From: Spirogloea muscicola
Lineage: Eukaryota; Streptophyta; Zygnematophyceae; Spirogloeales; Spirogloeaceae
Direction: 5' to 3'
Assembly: GCA_009602725.1 (NCBI GenBank)
Contig: WELB01000171.1
Location: 1-36,998 of the forward strand
DNA: 36,998 nucleotides
Of the stretch, positions 808 to 30,677 are shown piece by piece. How positions within the stretch are numbered: the stretch's first letter is position 1; the number at the start of each line of letters is the position of its first letter. Position numbers and translations under genes: made by a program. The notes beneath the pieces were generated by a model that was given only the letters and a program-made list of their open reading frames with translations, had not been told where the DNA came from and did no database searches.

Positions 808-2385
808 TCACCACCAATATTCAAAGGGGCCCAAAGGGCGCGCCTTTTGTGAATATTGTAAAGGGGCCCAAAGGGCGCGCCTTACATGCACACAAGCAAT
901 TGGTTCAATACGTGCACTCAAACAATGAGCACAACATTCAGAGTGTAAGGACGTGCATGGAGCAGCACAATGTGTGAGACTGCTTACCATAGACTTACGA
1001 CAATGACGGCTGGCCATCGGTGTGGATCCCAAATCCGTCTTGACAGAAATCTGCACACAAGGTTGCAGCACTGCAGGCTTCTGCACCAAAGGTCTGTCAG
1101 AACGCATCATGCGTTGACCTGTCTCTGGAGTTGGTATCACTTGTTTTGATTTTCTTGGTTCGAGTGGTGCATTAGAAACATCTGCAACCATTCCACTGTA
1201 TGCTGGAATGTCAGCAGGCCGTTGCCCTTTCAGTGAAGGACACTGCTTGATGGTCAGCTGCGATTTGTCAGCCGATATTTTGCCAGTATGTACAGCAGTG
1301 AAATTGCTGTTGGCCTGTAAGTCTGCATAAGACCAATTCTTGAGCAATGGCAACTCGACTGTAGTGGTACCAGAATTCCTCCAATCAGGTCTATACCATG
1401 CACTTTCAGTGTAGAAATCCGGACCAAATCCTAATGGCACCAGAAATTCGGTCCCAAGCAAGATATCATAAGTGTCTGCGTTAGTAATGATGCATTTTAC
1501 TGACAATTACGTTCGCTTGTCAGGATCATCAGAGAACAAGATGATATGCAAAGGGTTTTTGGTAATACCAACTATTTTGTCCGTACCACCTGTCGCAGTC
1601 TTTATTTTCATGTCACTCTGGACAATGTCACAAGCCTGCAACTTCAATGCAGCTATCATTTTTCTGCCCAAAAGTACAGGTTGAGCACCTGAGTCGAGAA
1701 GAACCATTGGAGGTTGAACCGACTCAATCTTCAGGATGCCAGAACTGTTGTCCAACATTGTAACAGAAGGAAACTTTTTCTTCCGCTCTTCGGGTGACCT
1801 GCAAGGTGCAGAACCAGCACATGATTGATCTGCAACCTGCTTAGTCGTTGTTATGGCCGAGACAGCTGCAACTTGAACATCTGAAGACTGGGCTACAGCT
1901 GTGTAACTCTGGAGCTCGCTGCTCAGTTTCTCCTTTGTCCACCCCAAGTCACTGAAACTTAAAACAGGGGCAGTGTAGATCCTGTCCAACAGCTGTTCAG
2001 CCGACAACTTGCATTCAACAATCAGTGAGTTAGTGTCAGCAGCCTTCGGTTTTGTGGCCTTCACAACAACCTGTGGCTTTGGTAGAGGGAGGTCTAGTGA
2101 AATTTGCTTCAACTTAAAAGATGCAGGATATCGAGCATTGCCAGTCCTAGCAAGCTGCTGCAAAGCATGTTCACCCCGTTTCAACGGGTTTCTGCTGGCT
2201 GTGTTAGAATCAGGAACTGCAGCAACAACAACGGCAAGGTTAGCGTATTGATGAGATGTCCCTGCATCATAATGATTTACGAACATTGCTTCAAGATCAT
2301 CCTCATCCTCTTCTATGTCAGTTTGTAGTACAGCAGCTGCAGCTGACTTAGCCCTGGACTCAGCTATGTCTCTGTCAGCCAGCTG
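808..2385 (-). pseudogene. Retropepsin-like protease region, same frame as gag, broken by a TAA
   Basis: The frame of gag continues from 2,385 to 808 with one more stop, TAA at 1,509-1,507. The aspartic protease signature LLDSGAQ lies near 1,700-1,685. The partner strand motif DILLGTEFL, matching the usual hydrophobic-hydrophobic-G motif of retropepsins, lies just beyond the stop near 1,465. The stop thus falls inside the protease fold, between its catalytic and C-terminal motifs, and the enzyme would be inactive without readthrough. The linker after the protease, with PETGQ and SDRPLVQK motifs, is shared with the fragment at 10,185-10,667. Whether the last codons before 808 are original coding sequence is uncertain. 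Confidence 0.75.
816..883. repeat. Two 32-bp direct repeats 36 bp apart
   Basis: AATATT followed by AAGGGGCCCAAAGGGCGCG occurs at 816-847 and again at 852-883 with two differences. It sits at the 3' end of the protease frame, and the last residues of that frame are translated from it. Confidence 0.7.
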
Positions 2386-3609
2386 TTAGGTTAGCATTTC
2401 AACTTGTTGCTGTAATTGCTGCATTTTGTCGTTGTCAACACGACCAACATTAGAAGAAGGAATTTCCATTCCCAAGGCATTCTTGTTACGGAATTGAACA
2501 GGCAGCTTATCGGGGAATTTCTTCCAGCATTGAGATTCTACATGTCCTGTTCTAGCACAATGAGCACAAATAGCTCCAGCAGTTTGATGTCGGGCAGCAC
2601 AATTCTTAGACATATGTCCAACTTTACCACAATTATGGCATGTAATAGCAGGACGAGGGATGTACCGATCTGGTCGATTTCCTTGTACCTCAGAAGTGTC
2701 TGGAAACGCCACATGCGCTTTAGGATTCCCTGTAAAAGGCTTCTTGACATCAGATACAACAACTCTTTGATCAGATCTAAGAAAGGAATCTGAAGCAACA
2801 GAAAACCGATCATCTAAGCTTGTTAAGGTGGAATCCGCAGACTCCTTCTCCAACAGGACCTGATAGACATCATCTAAGTCATAGTGCAGTTTACCAAGCT
2901 GCCTCATACGCATTGTCAACAAATTCATCACATACCCGACCGCTTTTCCTGCAACAACTCTCAGAAATTGTGCTGCAAGGTCCTGTGAACCCATGGATAT
3001 CTTGGACCTCTCTATTAAGTCCTCATAGCGAAAATAGCATGAGGTCAGAGTCTCTCCAGCTCCTCGTTGAAACCTGAAGAGGTCCTGCTTGTACTGACTT
3101 AAATTGTCAGGAAATTGCTTAGACATTAGCTTGAACATCTCTTCTACAGGGTCTTCAATTAGTTGAGGCCCTGCCGCCTTCTCGACGTCAGATGCAGTAT
3201 CTGCAACTGGTACCGTTTTTGTCAAGACATCCTGTTTGACCTTGCGGTACATGTTTCCAGCAAAGCCTGTGAAGTACTTCGAGAGCAAAGTCATCTTTTG
3301 CTCCCGTCCCACAACATAACCTTGTATGTCTAATTCGCACAACTCTTCTACAAAGGATTGTTTTACCTCGGCCAACGAGTGCCCACCTTCCATGCCTTGG
3401 AACTTTGGGCGATCTCCCGTTGCCATGGTCTTCCGCCTTCGTACGCGCGGAATTGACAAGTGTAGAACGTCTGCAGCCCCAACAGAGTTAGGTCCAACTG
3501 CCGCCACAGCAGATTCAGGCGCTACAAACACAGATTGATTAGTGTCAACCAAATCTGTGCTGTTAGACTCTTCCAGATTGGCGACTGTCTTGCCTGACCT
3601 CAATATCAT
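2386..3609 (-). pseudogene. gag: Retrotransposon gag nucleocapsid protein, ended by an in-frame TAA
   Basis: The 407-residue frame starts MILRSGK and contains a helical capsid-like middle. It has two zinc knuckles of the CX2CX4HX4C type at about residues 324-337 (CHNCGKVGHMSKNC) and 348-361 (CAHCARTGHVESQC), then a glutamine-rich coil. Gag packages element RNA into particles. The frame stops at TAA (2,388-2,386) in the middle of the glutamine-rich coil, but the same frame stays open downstream into the protease. The stop therefore looks like a mutation (CAA to TAA needs one transition) or a programmed readthrough site. It is homologous over its N-terminal half to the gag fragments at 8,723 and 9,877 (shared PQL, DPVEEMFK and CYFR blocks). 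Confidence 0.85.
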
Positions 3610-4439
3610 GCAACAGCTGACGAGAGGTAGGTCAAATGTTCACACAACAGTTCCCGAAATAGTAAAAGCAATCTAACCCAGAAGAACAGTCACACGAGTC
3701 CCACGCTAAGACACGAGTCCCAGTCCGGGTCAGCACTGAGTCCTGATCTAGAGTCCTAGTCCAGGTCAGCACTGAATCCACAGACAGGGGTCCCAGTCCG
3801 CTTTGCAAGTTAACAAGACGAAGGACGATGGACTGTCTACCGAGTAGAGAGCCTACACAAGCAAAGGTGCAGTCCCTTGCCCACAATATGATCCTTGTGC
3901 AGGGTCAGTAAACGACAATCGATGACGACGCCACTAGGCCTCAATGCACAGCCTTAGCTGATGTGATCTGAGAACTAGTGCTCAAGTTAGTGTAAAGCTG
4001 GTGATACACAGCACAACACACAAAACTGCTCACCACAGAATCACCTCGACTTCTCATAGTCGGGACACGGGTCCGTGCTTCGGCTCACTAGCTGCTGCGG
4101 CTCCTTGCCCTAGGCTCTACGCTTCTATGGCGCGGCGTTGGCGCAGGCGTGGCTCGCGGCAAGAGGGTGAAATTTGCAAAGCGGACTGCTTTGCAAGGGC
4201 TGCTCGCCCCGACTTGGGCCGGGCGCGGCGAAATCCTAGCGCTACCTGATAGGCCACAGGTGCGGCCGTTGGCTACGCTGGTTGGCTAAGCTGGATGGTC
4301 GGCTGTCGTGGGCCGTCATCCGTCGCAGGGGCTGGCTCGACCGTAGGATGGTTATCTTCAGCCGTCCGTTCCACGATCGCCCCGCCACCGCTTCTGTAGC
4401 GCCCACCTTCACGGACTTGTGAGTGGTCGAGGTACCTTC
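3610..4439 (-). other. Retrotransposon leader with imperfect short repeats; otherwise unassigned
   Basis: This segment lies 5' of gag. Between 3,690 and 3,800 it has several imperfect copies of a roughly 45-base unit containing GAGTCC, AGTCC and GGTCAGCACTGA. The related copy at 8.35 kb likewise carries tandem repeats before gag. From 4,050 to 4,440 I see GC-rich sequence without a gene I can support. Confidence 0.4.
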
Positions 4440-6718: not shown

Positions 6719-7518
6719 CCTTGTCAGATCGACGTCAATAAGCCATCGACGCGATATCTCGTGACAACCTTCTTGGCACCGGCCACTGCAGTAGTGGCTG
6801 TCCCATCGTTGGCAGTGAGGCCGCCTTTGGCAACTCTACATTGAGCGCTCTGCTCTATGATGATGCCGGCAACCAGGATAGGGGCCTCCCAGACTTCGTT
6901 TCTGTTGTGACTTCGTTTCTGCTGCTGCCTTACTCGCCTTCAGACCTTGTCCATTCCTTTGGGCTGGCCTCTCCCAGCCACCAGTCAATCTGGCCGCGCT
7001 TGCTTCCTAGTGGCTCCAGAAGTGGATGAAGGACAGGTCGTCAAGGCTCTCGTCACGTTCACAGCCCTCCTTCCCACCCTCAGAGTTATTCCTCCTGCCA
7101 CTGCTGCTGCCGCCCTCCTCGAGCGGCTCCAGAAGTGGTTGAATGACAGGTCGTCAAGGCCCTCATCAGCATTTTCGTCCCTCATTCTAACCCCTGCCAT
7201 CCCCCCTGCCACTGTTGCGGCCCCACTCATCCCGCAGCTCCAGCAGTGGTTTTTGGGCCGGGTAGACAAGGCCCCATGTTATTTGTGCTGGTTTTTGTCT
7301 GGACAATGTATTGGCTTGCACTGGCCACGCTTTGACTTCAAGCGCAAGGCGAGCTTTTTTCTCTGTGAGAGGTCTGTGAGACTCTTGCTCTTGCTAGCTC
7401 GTATGATCTAGGTTCTAGTACTGTGTGTGGAGCGCGCGGTACCACCTCCATGCGCTTGCGCATCATGAGGTGTCATGAAATATCCCGTCGGTGGCCCATT
7501 TGTGTCGATCTGACAAGG
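6719..7518. mobile_element. 800-bp non-autonomous DNA element with 48-bp terminal inverted repeats
   Basis: The ends 6,719-6,766 and the complement of 7,471-7,518 match at 39 of 48 bases, beginning CCTTGTCAGATCGAC. ATG is repeated on both flanks (6,716-6,718 and 7,519-7,521), suggesting a 3-bp target duplication. No transposase is encoded. The interior holds the GC-rich minisatellite modules and a segment (6,937-7,009) that recurs at 21,869-21,940. A 3-bp duplication would fit CACTA or PIF/Harbinger-like elements, but the termini match neither consensus, so the superfamily is open. Relatives of its right end lie at about 16,440-16,560. Confidence 0.75.
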
Positions 7519-7778
7519 ATGGTGACGTGGAAGTATGCGTGGACATCACAGGTGGACTCACATTTGCTCTAGTGTGAATGAGTCGCAACCAGGTCACCTC
7601 CGGCTCCACGTCAGTCAGGAAAGATTCGCACCAATCCGGTTCGGTGTCGGAGCACCATCCGATCCGCCGCCGTGCCTTCCCCCATCAACGGCAAGCAGCC
7701 CTTTCCTGCCGCCCGAACCGCTCAAATTAAGCCCGAAGGAAGCCGAAAAGCCCTACGTCCACTTCGATGGGTGTGCCC

Positions 7779-11786: not shown

Positions 11787-12304
11787 GTGAAGGTAGCGCA
11801 GCATGACGGCGGCAGCTGTGGCAAAGGAGGTACCAGCGGTTGCAACGGCGCCAGGAGGAAAGAGGTTGGTGGGCCCACCGGCTTGCCAGGATCGGCCATG
11901 GAGCCTTCCGCAAAAAGAAGAGCCATTGCCTCCATAGCAGCAGCAGCAGGCAGTATGCAGGAGGGCGCCTTGGCCGTCAAAGTAAACAGTGATCAAAGCA
12001 AACAAGCTCCCATTACTACCGTAGCAAGTCCTGCAGCCCAGGAGTGGCATGCCGATAGCCCCAGGTGTTTGATGGCGGCAAGTTTCGGCCGGCAGAAGCA
12101 GGGCATGGCTACTGACCCGCAGCCTGTCGCAGCATGCAAGTGACGGGAGCGCATCAGCAAGCGCATCCAATTACTACAGCAGCTCGTGCCGTCAGGCAGC
12201 AAGCTGGACACGGCGTCAATGCTTGACGAGGCAATTGATGATTACATCAAGTTTCTGCAAGCCTGCCTGCACCTAGTGGAGGCTGCGGCCAAGGCTGCCA
12301 GCTG
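11787..12304 (+). pseudogene. Plant-type bHLH transcription factor relic with a stop in the basic region
   Basis: One frame runs from 11,787 to 12,710 and is interrupted only by TGA at 12,141-12,143. Just before the stop is TDPQPVAACK and right after it [16 protein letters not shown]. Helix 2 follows as [11 protein letters not shown] and YIKFLQ. Plant HEC/IND-like bHLH proteins have a DPQSVAA motif, a basic region ending RRERI, then this helix-loop-helix. The stop sits where an arginine of the basic region is expected, so CGA to TGA is the likely change. The cysteine in VAAC stands where these proteins usually have arginine. An extra Asp (codon GAT duplicated) lies in helix 2. Such proteins dimerise and bind E-box DNA; this copy should not unless the stop is read through. 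Family identity is strong, gene boundaries are not. Confidence 0.75.
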
Positions 12305-12466
12305 CCACTGCTGCGCACAGGGGTTGGCGTGCACTTTCCCGAAGAGTCGGTCAGCAGTTGGCAATGGAGCTGGAAACGCTGGTGGTGCCGAGAAAGGACT
12401 TGCACAGGCGAGGGGGGTGGCGGACAGCGAGTCCGCAGTGGATGAGGACGCAGAGGCAGCAGAGAT

Positions 12467-12667
12467 ATGGCGCTGGTGGCGAAGGTGGCCTTTCACAAGA
12501 CGGTGGGGCTCATTCCTCAGCTCGACCTTCGCGGGCGTGCCCGGCTCCTGTTGGCCTCATCCCACGGGGCGGCGGCGTGGTCAATTGCGCTTACCCTTTA
12601 CGCGGCGCTCACCATGCCCGACGCAGTCCTCCGCACGGCCGTTCTGCGGCTGCTGGAGAGAGGATGA
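12467..12667 (+). CDS. Possible C-terminal exon of an unknown protein
   Basis: A 66-residue leucine- and alanine-rich frame with coding-like GC bias ends at TGA (12,665-12,667), exactly where the left arm of the copia-like palindrome begins. It is in a different frame from the bHLH relic. I do not recognise it. It may be the truncated end of a gene interrupted by the insertion, or a chance frame. Confidence 0.25.
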
Positions 12668-13132
12668 ATCTGGAAATGCTGATTACAGTAGACAGGAGCA
12701 GCGGACGTAGGCACAGGAGCGCCCAGAGCAGGAAGTCTTTCAGGTCATGGGCCCACCGGGCGGCTCGTTTCCTGTGCTCAGTCCCAAACTATCTCGTAAC
12801 ACGAAGTGGCTAGTCTGGAAGTTCAAGATGAGAAAGTTGCTCCAGTCTCAGAACGTTTGGACTGCTGTAGAGCCCACAGCAGATCGAGGGCTATGTCGGC
12901 CCTTCTCTCGAGAGAACATTACTGCCTCAGCGAATCGTGTGGCAGATCTGTCTGATGAGGAACTGATTGGAGTTGTCAACAAGTCTCTGGCAAGCAGGAT
13001 CTGGGAACATCTGGAAAGACAAGTTTGAAAGAAGAGGAACTCAGGGCGTACTATCTCAGCATGAGATTGCAGGAATGCAGAAAGGAGGCGGATGAGCCAA
13101 TACGAGAATTTGTGAACAGAGTGGAATCAATG
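12663..13132 (+). pseudogene. gag: Copia-like gag (UBN2/Retrotran_gag type) fragment, left arm
   Basis: The frame contains LSRNTKWLVWKFKMRKLLQ, the substrate-like start typical of copia gag, then VADLSDEELIGVVNKSLASR. After a frame change near 13,020 it continues with LRAYYLSMRLQECRKE and EFVNRVESM. It stops at the palindrome turn, and the protein N-terminus seen on the other arm is absent. Confidence 0.8.
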
Positions 13133-22250: not shown

Positions 22251-23840
22251 CCGCATCCCCCACAGCCTCGACGACGTGCGCGCGCTCAGGTGCGCCCCCG
22301 CCGCCGCCGCCGCCGCCGCCGCCGTCGCTGGTCGGGCCGCCGCCGGTCGGCCTCCGCCAGCTGCCGACCGCGGTCGCTACAGCAGCTCGCAGCGGCCCTG
22401 CGGCGATCCACCATATTGGCCGTCAAAACCGATTTGCCACGTTTGCCATCGGAAAATATCTAAGTCATTCCGCTCGGAGCTGGGAGTCGAGAGCCAGGGC
22501 TCTTCCCGTGCAGCGCCCACGATGGCTGTCGAGTCCGTCCTCGCCCTCCTGCATTGCTCCGCTGACGCGGCTCTGGACGTGGGAATGCTGCTTCTGCGCA
22601 GCGCCCACCTGGGCGCCTACGCGGATGACCACACCCCGCAGGCCGCGGCGACCTTCGTGGCGGCCTACGTGTTCATGCAGGTGCGCCTGTCTCACACCCG
22701 CTCACCTTGGCGGCCGCTCGCGCTCTTAGTGGGCTGGCTGCCTGCCTTGGCCTCACTCGCCGGCCTGCCAGGGAGCCCCCTGGCTCCCTGTGACCCCGCT
22801 GAAAAATTGCGGCTGCTGATAACAATAAAATATGTATGTACACGCATTTCAAATACATATCTGATACATACATATATATGTACATATGGATATCAAAAGA
22901 GCAGCTGATCTGCGGCCTCCTTGCAGACCTTTGCGCTGCCCGGAACGGCGTTCCTGGCGCTCCTGGCGGGCTCGCTGTTCGGCCAGGTGCGCGGCGTGGC
23001 GCTGGTCGTGTGCACGGCCACGCTGGGGTCGTCGTCCTCGTACCTCCTCTCGTGCCTCGTCAGCCGCCCGCTGGTCGCCTGGCTCTGGCCCGGCCGCCTC
23101 GAGGCCTTTCGGATGCAGGTCATTGCAGCGACTGCCATTTGCCGCCTGGTGCAGCAGCTGATCAGCTACCGCGCTGGTGCCCTCTGCCTGCCTCCAGTTT
23201 TGTGTGACAAGTGGTGGAGCTTCGACTAGGTCTCACAAATCAGCTAGTAGCCATCAGCTGCTATGCAATCCACTTCCACTATTGCCGCCCTTGAGTAATG
23301 GATGTGCTGGCCGCGCTCCAGCTTTTCTGAGCCCCACCACCGTCTACCTCATCAGGTGAAGCAGCGGCGGGCCAGCCTGCTGTACTACATGCTCTTCCTA
23401 CGCGTTACGCCCGCTTTCCCAAACACCTTCATCAACGTCGCATCGCCCATTGTTGATGTCCCATACCCAATTTTTGCCATTGGCACCTTCTTTGGCCTCA
23501 TGCCCGGGGCCTTTGTCGCTGTGCGGGTGAGGTGGTCTCCATCTGTCTTCCTTTGCCACTTCTTATCATATACATTTTTTTCGTGCCCGCGAAGCACATG
23601 CTGCAGCCATTTTTCAGCAGCATTTTGCAGCTTGCGCAACCTTGTGCTGACCAAGCATTTGGGCCCCTGGCATGGTGACAGGCGGGATCCACAATTGCAG
23701 ATATCCAATCTGTGTCTGACCTATACGACACCCAGACTCTGGCTACTCTGCTTGTCATTGCCGTTGTGTCTATTGCACCTACATTACTGGCAAAAAAGGA
23801 GGAGGTGTCAAAGGAGGGAAGCGACTCAAAGTCAGAGTGA
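22248..23840 (+). CDS. TMEM41-like VTT-domain (DedA superfamily) membrane protein
   Basis: Exons: up to 22,289 (5' end lost in the gap), 22,602-22,680, 22,927-23,118, 23,356-23,526 and 23,682-23,840, all with GT-AG borders and matching phases, ending TGA. The visible protein runs from RIPHSLDDVRAL through YVFMQTFALPGTAFLALLAG and FG, a membrane segment VALVVCTATLGSSSSYLLS, then LLYYMLFLRVTPAFPNTFIN and ASPIVDVP, a GTFFGLMPG turn and a last helix LLVIAVVSIAPTLLA before a charged tail. These are the VTT-domain hallmarks (re-entrant loop with LPG, FLR-TP-PN-NVASP). In animals TMEM41B is an ER lipid scramblase needed for autophagy and lipoprotein export; plants have several homologs. A similar role in ER membranes is inferred. 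The true start is not visible. Intron 1 is rich in CCG repeats. Confidence 0.9.
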
Positions 23841-24243
23841 TGTCTTTGGCAGGAGACTGCTCCACATGGAGGGAACTTATTTAACAGGCCTGTTGGCTGA
23901 TCAAGCATGTCATTGATAGTGTGAACCTGGAAGCCGCTTGCCAGTTTCTTACGTGGTGCATACCTGTTGGCTAATGCCCAGATGCATCAGGCCAGTCAAT
24001 TTTGCCGTATGAATTTTCGGAGCCTATATAAGGCTTGCCACATTGTGCACATTAGCCAACGTTGAGATTGCCAACTGCTCCATTTGTATAGGTCCATTTT
24101 GCCAGCCTTTGAAGCGGCAGCTTGTAGGAAGAGGGTACACCATTATTCAGTTCACGAGATCACAAGCAGATGCTCAAAGGTGTGCTGCTGGATTGCAGGC
24201 CTGGGTGCACATCAGTATAGCAAAGATGAAAGGGAGACCAATC
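23841..24243. other. Intergenic region, 3' of the VTT gene
   Basis: This holds the presumed 3' untranslated region. A TATATAAGG box lies near 24,025-24,033 on plus, followed by a plus frame of 164 residues (24,043-24,537) that I regard as antisense to the channel relic. No other feature was seen. Confidence 0.4.
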
Positions 24244-24752
24244 TTAGGAGCAAGTAAAGGCCAGTGTGGCAATCAGAAAATAAAGCGCCGCGAGCAGGAC
24301 CACGCAGGTCGTGGTGATGAGGCTGGTCACTCGGAATGCAAGGGCCAAGTTTTCGCCATGACCGTCTGGTGCCATCGGGGTGTCTTCCACGACCGGCCAA
24401 CGCTCCATACAGCTCTTGAAACATCCTGTTGCAGCTTCCTGCTGGACGACTGCAACCGGGTAGATCGGGCTGATCCAGTATCCACTCCAATCTCCTGCTC
24501 AGCAGCCATGCAAATCCACGAGTCACGCATCTGTTGAGAACTGAGAGTTGCCACCTTGTAAGCATCAGCCACCTTAGCAGTCAGCAAGGCTTCACAGCTC
24601 TCTAGCTGTCCATCAACCACAACTTGAGTGGCTGTGAGGGCAAGGAACAGCGTCCTTCCAACATTGAGCCCGCAGCTCAAGCTTCACTTCAAGGAGAAAC
24701 AAAGAATACTTTGAAGGCCAGGCAAACTGCTGTGATAACCGTACAGATTATA
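24244..24752 (-). pseudogene. Decayed partial copy of a pentameric ligand-gated ion channel
   Basis: Two blocks resemble exons 10 and 13 of the gene at 26,379-30,677. At 24,752-24,606 the M1-M2 exon is recognisable (TLFLALTATQVVVDGQ against TLFLALTATQFVVDGQ). It carries a 2-base and a 1-base insertion with a TGA, and both splice sites are altered (no AG before it, CT instead of GT after it). At 24,494-24,244 is a last-exon-like block of 83 codons ending LAFRVTSLITTTCVVLLAAL, YFLIATLAFTCS and TAA, parallel to FRLASLIDTCFLVLLPLLYF in the intact gene. The M3 exon and the M3-M4 loop exon between them are missing. It is the relic of a tandem duplication downstream of the intact gene. The TM4 block itself is undamaged, so use as an alternative 3' exon cannot be excluded. 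Confidence 0.7.
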
Positions 24753-24779
24753 TGCAGCAATTGGCAGCATGGATCACGT

Positions 24780-26378: not shown

Positions 26379-29300
26379 TCAGGAGCAGGCAAATATTAGT
26401 AGGGCACCCACGAAGTAGAGCAGTGGTAGGAGTACAAGGAAACAGGTGTCTATCAGGCTCGCTAATCGGAACGCCTGAGTCGAACTTGCAGCCAAAGACG
26501 TTTGATGCCGCCGGATGGTTCTCCATGTCGTGCTGATGGCCGGCCCCACGCTACAGAATGTCCGCCTCAAGCTTCTTGATCTCCTCAACTTGGTGCCCTT
26601 TGCTGCGGAAGGCCCTCCTCCATCACCCTGATTGGATAGCTGGCAATGTCAGGCACACTGCCACCTCAACTTCACATTGACCACATATACTCTTGAGGGC
26701 TGGCCTCTGCTGAGGACAAAGACCAAGGTCAACAAATAAGAACAGCAGAAGCCTTGTTTCACATCCTGCAATGTTTACCTTGGGTTTGCTAACAGAACCA
26801 CCTTCCAACTCTTGATCCTCATCAACCAGTGGCATGCTGGCCTGCCTAGAAGATCCACCTTGAATGCTACTGCTTGTAGCAGCACTTTCCATCATGCCAA
26901 GCTTCTTCAGCACCTCTTTCCCAAGCCTCGTCCTCTTGACATCCTGAAGACAATTCCAGCACCTAGCTAGTTTTGAGCAGGATTTGGTTCAAATATGTCT
27001 TGCATGTAGACAACACAAAGGAAAGATAGAGAGTATTCAAGGCTCACAAAAACTTCCTCTATTGCAACAACAACAAATGTGGCTGTCCACAACAACATAT
27101 GCTGAGAAGTCAGCTGGCAGACTCATATGACCTTACAGAGCAGGGAAGCGCAAGTTCGTGGCTTGAATTGCCAGATTGATGGCCTCAAAACAGAAGTGCC
27201 CTACCACTCAGGATGTAAGGGATGCATATGAGCCTACCAGGGTAGTTATGTAGTGTACAAAGGTGCACTCGCACACAATGAGCACAATAATTATATATGA
27301 TAGTAACACCATCTTGTGAAAAGCTGTCAGATAAGATGTCTTCGGCACCTGCCAGCAACTTGTCATCCTGATTGTTAGGCATGTCAGAAAAATCAATGCT
27401 ACCAGCAGTCATGCCACTTACATCATCCTACTTAAGGTTTACTGAGCCCTGATGGGAAAGTGTGATAGACCTGTCTTCTACATCAAGCAAGCATGGAATG
27501 ATGAGAAAACTGCTGAGGAGTAGGTGCAGGAGTGCTGCGAGGCCCTTGGTCGGCCCAAGCCACCTTCAACAACAGCCATCTTCAACTACAGTAGGAGGAG
27601 CCCAGTTTACTAGATGACCGACCTGTCCATCAACGACAAACTGGGTGGCAGTAAGGGCAAGAAAAAGTGTGACTGTAGTGTTCAGCCGCAGCTCGAGCTT
27701 CACTGGGGAAGCAAAGAATGCCACAAATGCCAGGGCAACTGTGATCATAACTGGGAATATTATCTGCAAGAGAAGCAGCAAGGGAGGGTCAAATTGAAAA
27801 TATTCTCCACCAGTGGTCACAAACTAGGAACCTTAAGCACATTCACAAGTGCCACAATAAGGGTCAAAGACAACAAAACACTTGTAGTTTACCATCCCTG
27901 TGGTAAATCTTCAGCATGTCTGCAGAGGCCAGACAAATACCCTAGGTGATTATTATACAATCTACTGTAGTGACGACATGAGCCTGCATAACAGAAACCG
28001 AACTTACATTCCAGATGTAGAAGTAGCTAAGGCGCTCCACGACGATGACAATCTCGCAAGATGTGGGCTTGATTGACAGTTGCTTGCCACACTCCTCACT
28101 TTGGGCCTTCAAGATATCAACCAAAGGATCATCTGCATGAGCAATAGAAAGAAGATCAGCGCATAAGTGCAAATGGAAGTCTGTGCCATGAAGGGTAGCC
28201 CAACTCTTTTGCCAGCAAGAGGCACTGCTCCTATCAAATTTGCCGGCCTGAGAGGTTCATACTCTTCTTGCTACATAATCTCAAACAGAATCAGAGATGT
28301 GAAAGGGCCAAGCAGTCTGCTCACCTGGATCAGCTTTCTGCCACAACTCTGACGAGTTGCAATCAAGTTGCGGGTCGCACTTGAGATATATCTGCAATAT
28401 CTTCCAGCCTGCAAGGTCATCGCTTGGGTAACTCTTGCCTGCCCCTTTGAGGCGTCGCCCAGCCACACTCAAAGCTTGATCCTTGGCAGTGATGCTTGGC
28501 ACAATATAATAGTCTGAGTCTGTTGTCTGAATTTGCATGATAAGCTTCTGCTCCCATCTCATGCAGGTGGAGAGGAGAAAATAGACAAATGGACAAATAC
28601 AGTCTTCCATTTAGTACTGCCCATGCAAAGAATGGCTAGCTTTCACCTCTTGTCTATTGCAAGGATTGCTATCTTGAGTACTTGTCTGGAGGCTGAATGC
28701 ATCCAGACAAAACATCATGTAGGTATATGCCGACAAATGTCAAGCTGACAACAAGTGTCAACTATGCATAATTTGCATGCCTCCAGACAGAACATTGTGA
28801 AGGCATTTATATGTCCAAGACATCTATGCTGCAAGTTGAAGAAGTGTCCTCACTTGCGCTTAGTTTACTTGTGAAATGTTCACCTGTTTATCAAAAGGAA
28901 AACGTTGAAAGGACAGTGGTGTTGAAAAGAGACCTGCATTCAAAGGAATGGTTGAGCTCTTTGCTGCTGTACAGATGCAAATGCATAGCCTAACTGATAT
29001 GCTGATTGCTGCCAGCTGTGTCAGCTTGACTAGCACCTCTGTATCTCATGCAAATGTCCAAAAAGCGTTCTGCCTATCTATGCAGAATAGAAGGCTCACT
29101 TACCTTGCACCTGAGTCTGACGTATGCCAGCATTGGGTGTTGCTCCCGGATTCAGCATGTCTGCAGCAAGCAAGGAGCTACATGATCCAGAAGTTTAAGT
29201 CCGTCACCATAGCTCCACCTGATTGAGATACGCTCTCAAAAAGCTCAGATTTACAGTGCAAAGTCCTATTAACGTGCTTCTCAAATGTTCAGCACAATTT

Positions 29301-30677
29301 ACCTTCGACATATCGATCTTGGGAATAGGCAAGAACATTCCCAAATCTGAACCCAGGTACCCATACAGCATCGCAACAGACAGTCTGATCCCACGGAAAG
29401 CAGTACCGATCGCATGGAACGCTGCAGGCCAGTTTGACAAAGGTCATCAAGAACACATCCATGATTGTCACTTCTCTTGCCCTGGATCAGGCGAACAGCA
29501 GACAAGAGAATGGCAGATGCCTGCTGAATTGGAAGCTATGCAGTACTTGCAGTGAACCTGTTGACTTTCTCGGTGGCCGCGTTGCAGGTCGTATTGGTGG
29601 AGTTGAAGGACATGCCATCTGTATAATTATAATTACTCTCAGCAATGTAGGCGCTGCATTGTGACTGCTTGGACACGGCTATATTCTGTTTGACGACGGA
29701 ACTCAGTACGAGGCCATTGATGAGCTCTTCAGCTGCAACACAGGAGCAGTCAGCCCAAAGTGAGCCCTTGTAAGTCCTGCCATAATTCCTGATCACAAGT
29801 ATGCAGAGCACAAGTGCTTGCCAAGAATTGGAGTTCAGCATCTGGCAAAGGCAGTGGATCCCTTGTGCGTCCACCTCTAGGATCCCTCCAAGTCGTCACC
29901 ACGGTCATAACAACCTCGAAGGAATAATTTATCTCTGCAAAATATACAACGAGGCCTGTGATGTTCTTTGCTGTAAATCGAAAGACTAAACATTGTGCTG
30001 GCAGCATGAGGCCTGTAAGCCCTGAATGCTTTCCAGGAATGGAGGTATGCAAATTTGCTTTGTTTATCTAAATAATATTAGGGCGTCCACTGCACGTTTC
30101 TTGCTCACCTCAACCTGATTGTTCGATAAGATGCAAGCATCCAGCTGGCGGTGCAAATGTGGTGCAAAAGGTGCCGTCAAGTAGTAGCACATCATGCGAC
30201 TCGGAGATCACAACAATCGCTAGCGAGTAGGGTTCAGAGAAGCAGGAATGAGCTCACCATCTACTTTGAACAGCTTCTCAAGGACAACTGACATGTACAC
30301 GGGCGTCGCATTTCTGCAGTAACGGATACAGCAGCACATTTACCGATGTACTTTCCAGGCGCAGCACATGAGGCACTGCAGCAGCATGAAGATCTCAAAT
30401 CCATCCGGTTCCAGGGGACCTCGCAACGTGGAACACTGCGAACACGTCGCAGGCAGCGTTCCCAGCAGATGGCGCTTTAACTTGTGCAAGGACAGACGGC
30501 CTTGAGAGGGAGCGGCGGACCGTACGTGACGAGGCCGGCGCCGAAGGGGGACACGCCCTGGCCAAGCAGAGGCGTTTGCTGCTGCGAGGTGGCGGCGCCC
30601 GCGAGCGCGGCTAATAGCGCCGCCGCCAGCAGCGCTGAGGCCGGCAGGCGGCGGCGGCCGCTGCCGCCAGCTCTCAT
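26379..30677 (-). CDS. Pentameric ligand-gated ion channel subunit (Pro-loop receptor), 13 exons
   Basis: Exons: 30,677-30,526; 30,313-30,258; 29,934-29,875; 29,732-29,558; 29,421-29,303; 29,160-29,104; 28,933-28,884; 28,547-28,325; 28,132-28,008; 27,763-27,623; 27,348-27,238; 26,943-26,779; 26,627-26,379. All borders are GT-AG, phases agree, and the sum is 1,683 bases, 560 residues plus TGA. A signal peptide (MRAGGSGRRRLPASALLAAA) precedes the extracellular domain: TPVYMSVVLEKLFKVDEINY, VVTTWRDPR, the WVP motif in CCDAVWVPGFRFGN, and TPLSFQRFPFDKQ at the Cys-loop place but without its cysteines. M1 follows ERLSYFYIWN; M2 is TTVTLFLALTATQFVVDGQ; M2-M3 is VPKTSYLTAF; M3 is MVLLSYIIIVLIVCE. A cytoplasmic loop of about 100 residues, serine-rich, then basic, leads to M4 (LIDTCFLVLLPLLYFVGALL). 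Five such subunits form a ligand-opened pore in a membrane. Ligand and ion are unknown. Confidence 0.85.

Follow-up and report, generated by a model that had tools for sequence, protein, structure and literature searches.

In the PDB, the best full-protein matches to the product of the gene reported here are bacterial. GLIC is the proton-gated pentameric channel (pLGIC) of Gloeobacter and has a short M3-M4 loop, and ELIC is the corresponding channel from Dickeya/Erwinia. To our knowledge, pLGICs are lacking in land plants. Jaiteh et al. (2016, PMC4795631) listed seven residues that are conserved over 561 channels, and gave a rule for the Cys-less group, with a polar residue in place of the first Cys-loop cysteine and a hydrophobic residue in place of the second. 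The passages of the same paper on distribution place Cys-less channels in Chlorophyta but report none for multicellular plants, and its statement on function, as of 2016, is that a biological role was known for none of the channels of this family in unicellular organisms. For the streptophyte lineage, extensive loss of such channel types is proposed in the relevant part of a 2024 paper (PMC11085791).

The chlorophyte channels described by Jaiteh et al. (2016, PMC4795631) are also green algal and Cys-less with the same conserved core, but belong to a different division from the most likely host of our gene. Since Cys-less channels of green algae are in print, the family is a known one in an unexpected lineage, and the view of the initial annotation that algal genes are little studied has to be narrowed, as those of Chlorophyta were already published in 2016 (PMC4795631). 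Searches of the open-licence PMC literature returned no report of these channels from Zygnematophyceae. The new points are the lineage, the paired channel types and a cluster of cysteines in the extracellular domain.

Gene model and conserved features of the subunit

The window, by which we mean the whole stretch of 36,998 nucleotides that was analyzed, carries a gene at 26379-30677 on the minus strand. Judged from its sequence, it very probably encodes a Cys-less (Pro-loop) pLGIC subunit and belongs to a streptophyte alga, for which the zygnematophyte Spirogloea muscicola is the likeliest candidate. The coding region extends from an ATG at 30677 to a TGA at 26381-26379, and removal of 12 introns with GT-AG ends joins 13 exons into a single frame of 560 residues with no internal stops. 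The gene had been proposed in this form at the outset, and it was rebuilt here from the sequence, with the same splice structure in further copies on contigs C8 and C42 (C-numbers are contig labels). Together with the match to Neur_chan_memb, the match to GLIC and the splice sites recurring in two copies, the gene model lies far above chance.

Exon 1 (30526-30677) contains the start codon and a hydrophobic stretch found by hydropathy at residues 10-31, which is read as a presumed signal peptide. The extracellular domain begins in exon 2 (30258-30313; TPVYMSVVLEKLFKVD), which is followed by exon 3 (29875-29934; EINYSFEVVMTVVTTWRDPR) and by exon 4 (29558-29732), an extracellular insert with N-glycosylation sequons that is largely a gap in the paralog. 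Exon 5 (29303-29421) encodes four cysteines and loop A (VWVPGFRFGN), and exon 6 (29104-29160) was placed by the spliced frame. The Pro loop RFPFDKQ is found in exon 7 (28884-28933) together with T211, and exon 8 (28325-28547) contributes L225 and the core tryptophan W271. The extended loop C region ends in exon 9 (28008-28132), which also encodes the pre-M1 arginine R331. M1 and the pore helix M2 are encoded by exon 10 (27623-27763; E363 at -2', R365 at 0' and L374 at 9'), the M2-M3 loop with P388 and M3 by exon 11 (27238-27348), the cytoplasmic M3-M4 loop by exon 12 (26779-26943), and the end of this loop, M4 and the stop codon TGA by exon 13 (26379-26627). The last acceptor admits variants. 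The acceptor at 26627 gives 560 residues, an alternative at 26639 gives 564, and two more in-frame acceptors give 550 and 547. The 560-residue form is preferred over that of 564, because in the C42 copy an ATAG immediately upstream of the acceptor corresponding to 26627 places a stop within the longer form.

Pfam scans took in the window, C42 and C154 proteins, i.e., three of the six channel copies that are described below. Neur_chan_memb (PF02932) matched residues 340-557 of the window protein at E 1.1e-13, with a score of 52.4 bits where the cut-off is 28.1, and the C42 and C154 proteins with 48.9 and 44.3 bits. The match to Neur_chan_LBD (PF02931), with a cut-off of 26 bits, is marginal for the window copy at 24.0 bits; C42 scored 27.5 and C154 15.8. 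Both domains had been expected, and it is the membrane domain that was clearly recovered. When the two profiles were run directly on the genome no match was returned, yet protein queries recovered the genes. An ERG4_ERG24 match (16.4 bits, cut-off 27) was dismissed as a membrane-helix match, and a TraI_C match on one ORF, being below cut-off, was rejected. Four membrane helices had likewise been claimed; M1, M3 and M4 correspond to hydrophobic stretches at residues 332-364, 391-425 and 530-560, while M2 falls below the hydropathy cut-off and its position was assigned by homology alone.

All seven superfamily-wide residues in Table 1 of Jaiteh et al. are present in the window protein (F218, P219, D221, W271, R331, P343 and P388), and they are invariant across five of the six gene copies, the alignment having been made without C8. 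F218, P219, F220 and D221 form the [F/Y]PxD motif of the beta6-beta7 loop, of which F, P and D are invariant in the five aligned copies; the RFPFD loop noted initially lies within RFPFDKQ. W271 is the beta9 core tryptophan, R331 the pre-M1 arginine, P343 the proline at 14' of M1 and P388 the proline between M2 and M3. Within M2, the arginine at 0' and the leucine at 9' are kept. The two cysteine positions of the Cys-loop are occupied by T211 and L225, and thus the protein is Cys-less, as the first reading of the sequence had held; the pair of loop-flanking cysteines that characterizes animal Cys-loop receptors is missing, and the polar T211 and hydrophobic L225 agree with the rule for the Cys-less group. 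As far as can be read from sequence, the predicted protein combines a hydrophobic leader, an extracellular domain, the [F/Y]PxD loop, the pre-M1 arginine, helices M1-M4 and constraint across three copies.

In a PDB search with the window protein, GLIC was the best match (E 1.1e-11), in two stretches, one from loop A to the Pro loop and the other from pre-M1 to M3. The Cys-less loops are similar (SPLDFRRYPFDSQTL in the alga, TPLSFQRFPFDKQKL in GLIC), and the 12 residues from R331 to P343 equal the distance from R192 to P204 in GLIC. In contrast, GLIC has two fewer residues between M1 and M2, and the spacing from the Pro loop to the tryptophan is 52 in the window protein but 40 in GLIC, and that from the tryptophan to the pre-M1 arginine is 60 but 32. 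The extracellular domain is hence bigger in the window protein. A profile of the five aligned copies matched ELIC best, with E 5.8e-5 for the extracellular domain and E 1.4e-8 from loop C to M3, although loop C differs. With these PDB and Pfam matches and the splice structure conserved in two copies, the earlier assignment of the gene to the Cys-less (Pro-loop) pentameric channels, as an algal subunit, was upheld.

Copies in the genome and a second channel type

The genome, 153 Mb in 471 contigs, was searched with protein queries. Two extra copies of the window-type gene were found, on C8 and C42, in which all 12 introns have GT-AG ends and every exon from 2 to 13 has the same length as in the window. 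Identity among the three copies is 94.2-95.8% in exons and 85.0-91.8% in introns, with 0-5 gap columns in exons and 89-158 in introns. The window is collinear from 22.4 to 30.9 kb with both stretches around the C8 and C42 copies, and the three copies may be homeologs of a genome triplication.

Weaker matches in the same search revealed a second channel type, also in three copies, on C23, C154 and C62. The second-type model has 12 exons and is open in all three copies, which encode 519-521 residues when counted from the aligned start region. The start modeled for C154 has no ATG in C62 and C23; C154 and C62 have an in-frame ATG farther upstream, where C23 shows an N. The two types are 32% identical, and nine of the 12 introns of the window type and nine of the 11 of the second type match in place and phase, the second-type model having been drawn with the first in view, though from its own GT-AG sites. 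Based on the shared introns, both types probably come from a single intron-rich ancestor that was duplicated before the threefold multiplication. A genome search with the C154 protein gave 39 matches, all within the two trios save one, a match on C52 at E 0.6 that was taken as chance.

These data bear on a recent transfer, or contamination, by which a bacterial channel gene would have entered the algal assembly. The best full-protein PDB matches, GLIC and ELIC, are indeed bacterial, but the 12 introns, the three copies in collinear surroundings and the second type sharing nine introns contradict such an event, and we regard it as scarcely credible. An old bacterial origin, well before the duplication of the two types, may nevertheless lie behind the family. 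Relatives were sought in viral contigs, with none found, and twice in prokaryote genomes, also with none. The second prokaryote scan, confirmed against a GLIC fragment, did not recover even a relative of GLIC, and these scans are given no weight as negatives.

Synonymous and nonsynonymous changes (NG86) gave dN/dS values of 0.22, 0.36 and 0.23 for the three window-type pairs, with 0.09-0.19 over M1-M3, the lowest among the larger regions tested, and values of 0.29-0.42 across the second trio. Within this range of 0.22-0.42, purifying selection on both channel types is indicated by the sequence comparison, and it is from this selection alone that we infer the gene to be functional. It is quite unlikely that the genes are relics of disused channels in a decaying family. 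Such decay would fit an apparent tandem relic beside all three copies, a shift in exon 1 of the C8 copy and, in the second trio, one pair whose dN/dS reaches 0.42; however, five of the six copies are open from the modeled start region to the stop, C8 is open from exon 2 onward, and dN/dS lies well under 1, with the minimum in M1-M3 given above. The shift in C8 (L001) leaves exon 1 net one base short, with changes of -3 and +2 against the window copy, and this copy may be dead, begin elsewhere or contain an assembly error.

What appears to be the relic of a tandem channel copy was found in the window by tblastn with the C8 relic fragments, at 24354-24760 on the minus strand; similar fragments lie at 1957-2352 (-) of L001 and at 7055-7733 (+) of L002, and the first protein search of the genome had also shown such fragments on C8 and C42. 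The matches cover only M1-M2 and the M3-M4 loop, and those of L002 contain stops. The relic adjoins the gene in all three places, and if it is real, the tandem duplication predates the threefold multiplication.

Cysteine cluster, pore entrance and proposed mechanism

Directly before loop A, both types possess four cysteines (C151, C155, C163 and C164 in the window protein), which are invariant in the five aligned copies. Compared with ELIC, the cluster flanks an insert of seven residues, in which C163 lies, and ELIC lacks both the insert and the cysteines. The four residues could form a disulfide-braced cap.

The pore entrance differs between the types, being Glu-Leu-Arg in the window type and Ala-Ala-Arg in the second type. 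A glutamate of GLIC, presumably at position -2', aligns with E363 of the window protein and with alanine in the second type. The second type is near the Pro-Ala-Arg of GABA-A receptors at this place, and aligns without gaps through M1-M2 with GABA-A gamma2, Ala-Arg against Ala-Arg. The best PDB match to its M1-M3 region was also GABA-A gamma2 (E 2.6e-6). The preference for animal anionic receptors is slight, as the bacterial chain 6v4a (E 4.6e-6) follows closely, ahead of the glycine receptor (E 6.9e-6). Unlike GABA-A gamma2 and the glycine receptor, which are animal Cys-loop receptors, the algal proteins are devoid of the Cys-loop cysteines, and the entrance of the window subunit reads Glu-Leu-Arg. 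The entrance sequences suggest one cation-type and one anion-type subunit; the pre-M2 motif is, however, no general predictor of selectivity in protist and prokaryotic channels, according to the section of Jaiteh et al. (2016, PMC4795631) that deals with it.

In the mechanism we propose, five subunits, of a single type or mixed with the second type, would make a channel, located either in the plasma membrane or in an endomembrane. Once a ligand or a pH change has acted on the extracellular domain, the movement would reach M2 by way of the D221-R331 pair and the M2-M3 loop, and the pore would open. The window subunit is predicted to favor cations, because it has a glutamate where GLIC has one, and the second type may favor anions or serve as a modulating partner. 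By this means the cell would convert a chemical cue fast into a membrane-potential or calcium signal. It is unlikely, though the divergent extracellular domain, its long inserts and the four-cysteine cluster would allow it and the sequence names no ligand, that the fold was kept without a channel opened by ligand or pH, the protein being instead a receptor that does not conduct, an accessory partner or a channel that responds to tension or lipid; the arginine at 0', the leucine at 9' and the residues coupling the extracellular and transmembrane domains are all kept, which speaks against this.

More tentatively, and with rather less than even confidence, we suggest that the algae sister to land plants could have a working two-subunit system with cation-like and anion-like entrances and a shared cysteine-cluster brace, which would have been present in the common ancestor and lost only at or near the origin of land plants. 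If the genes are intact and constrained in this sister lineage, the loss moves to the land-plant stem. A green organism without nerves would then be available for asking what such receptors do, and two pore types in one genome would allow rules of ion selectivity to be tested beyond the animals.

Host lineage and neighboring features

The assignment of the host comes from marker families in the same genome. A total of 92 exon-level matches to GRAS were found. Sorted by eye, these make up five or more sets of three contigs, besides some pairs and a single one. NAM (NAC) gave 38 matches, partly in threes. Many weak NAM (NAC) matches are clustered on C21, C264, C348 and C9, separate from the strong sets. 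According to TAPscan v4 (PMC11712027), the suggested origin of GRAS lies in the ancestor shared by Zygnematophyceae and land plants (Anydrophyta), and among streptophyte algae a whole-genome duplication, a triplication, has been detected in S. muscicola only. The triplication is also mentioned in PMC7994812. The presence of GRAS genes, of which several form sets of three, therefore points to a zygnematophyte or a land plant, and the triplication to Spirogloea muscicola.

A chlorophyte host, with which the gene would merely extend the known chlorophyte distribution, is very improbable. XET_C is a wall family of streptophytes. Its profile search of the genome gave no match, as did those with Dirigent and IFT57, and a lack of XET_C would fit a chlorophyte, though these searches are uninformative as negatives. 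Against such a host stand the GRAS matches in threes and the origin of this family as suggested in PMC11712027, the NAM (NAC) matches partly in threes, and a bHLH domain in the window with a sub-threshold LHW match. The zygnematophyte host is preferred. A land plant is a less likely host, with which the gene would be an even greater surprise.

The bHLH exon is located at 12144-12710 on the plus strand, with an HLH match of 24.3 bits, above cut-off, and an LHW-type match of 22.1 bits against a cut-off of 28.5. The homolog nearest to it in sequence is found at a distance of about 6 kb from the channel copy on C8, and a bHLH neighbor looked for near the C42 channel copy was not found. Genome matches to the bHLH frame (150 scored of 439 candidates) fall mostly within residues of about 108-175 and look like a repeated or mobile segment. 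At 2386-3639 on the minus strand, an ORF of 417 residues with a CCHC zinc knuckle is possibly a gag-like retroelement frame. Near the channel gene, the region 23299-23916 on the plus strand gave a VTT domain match of 33.1 bits against a cut-off of 33.9.
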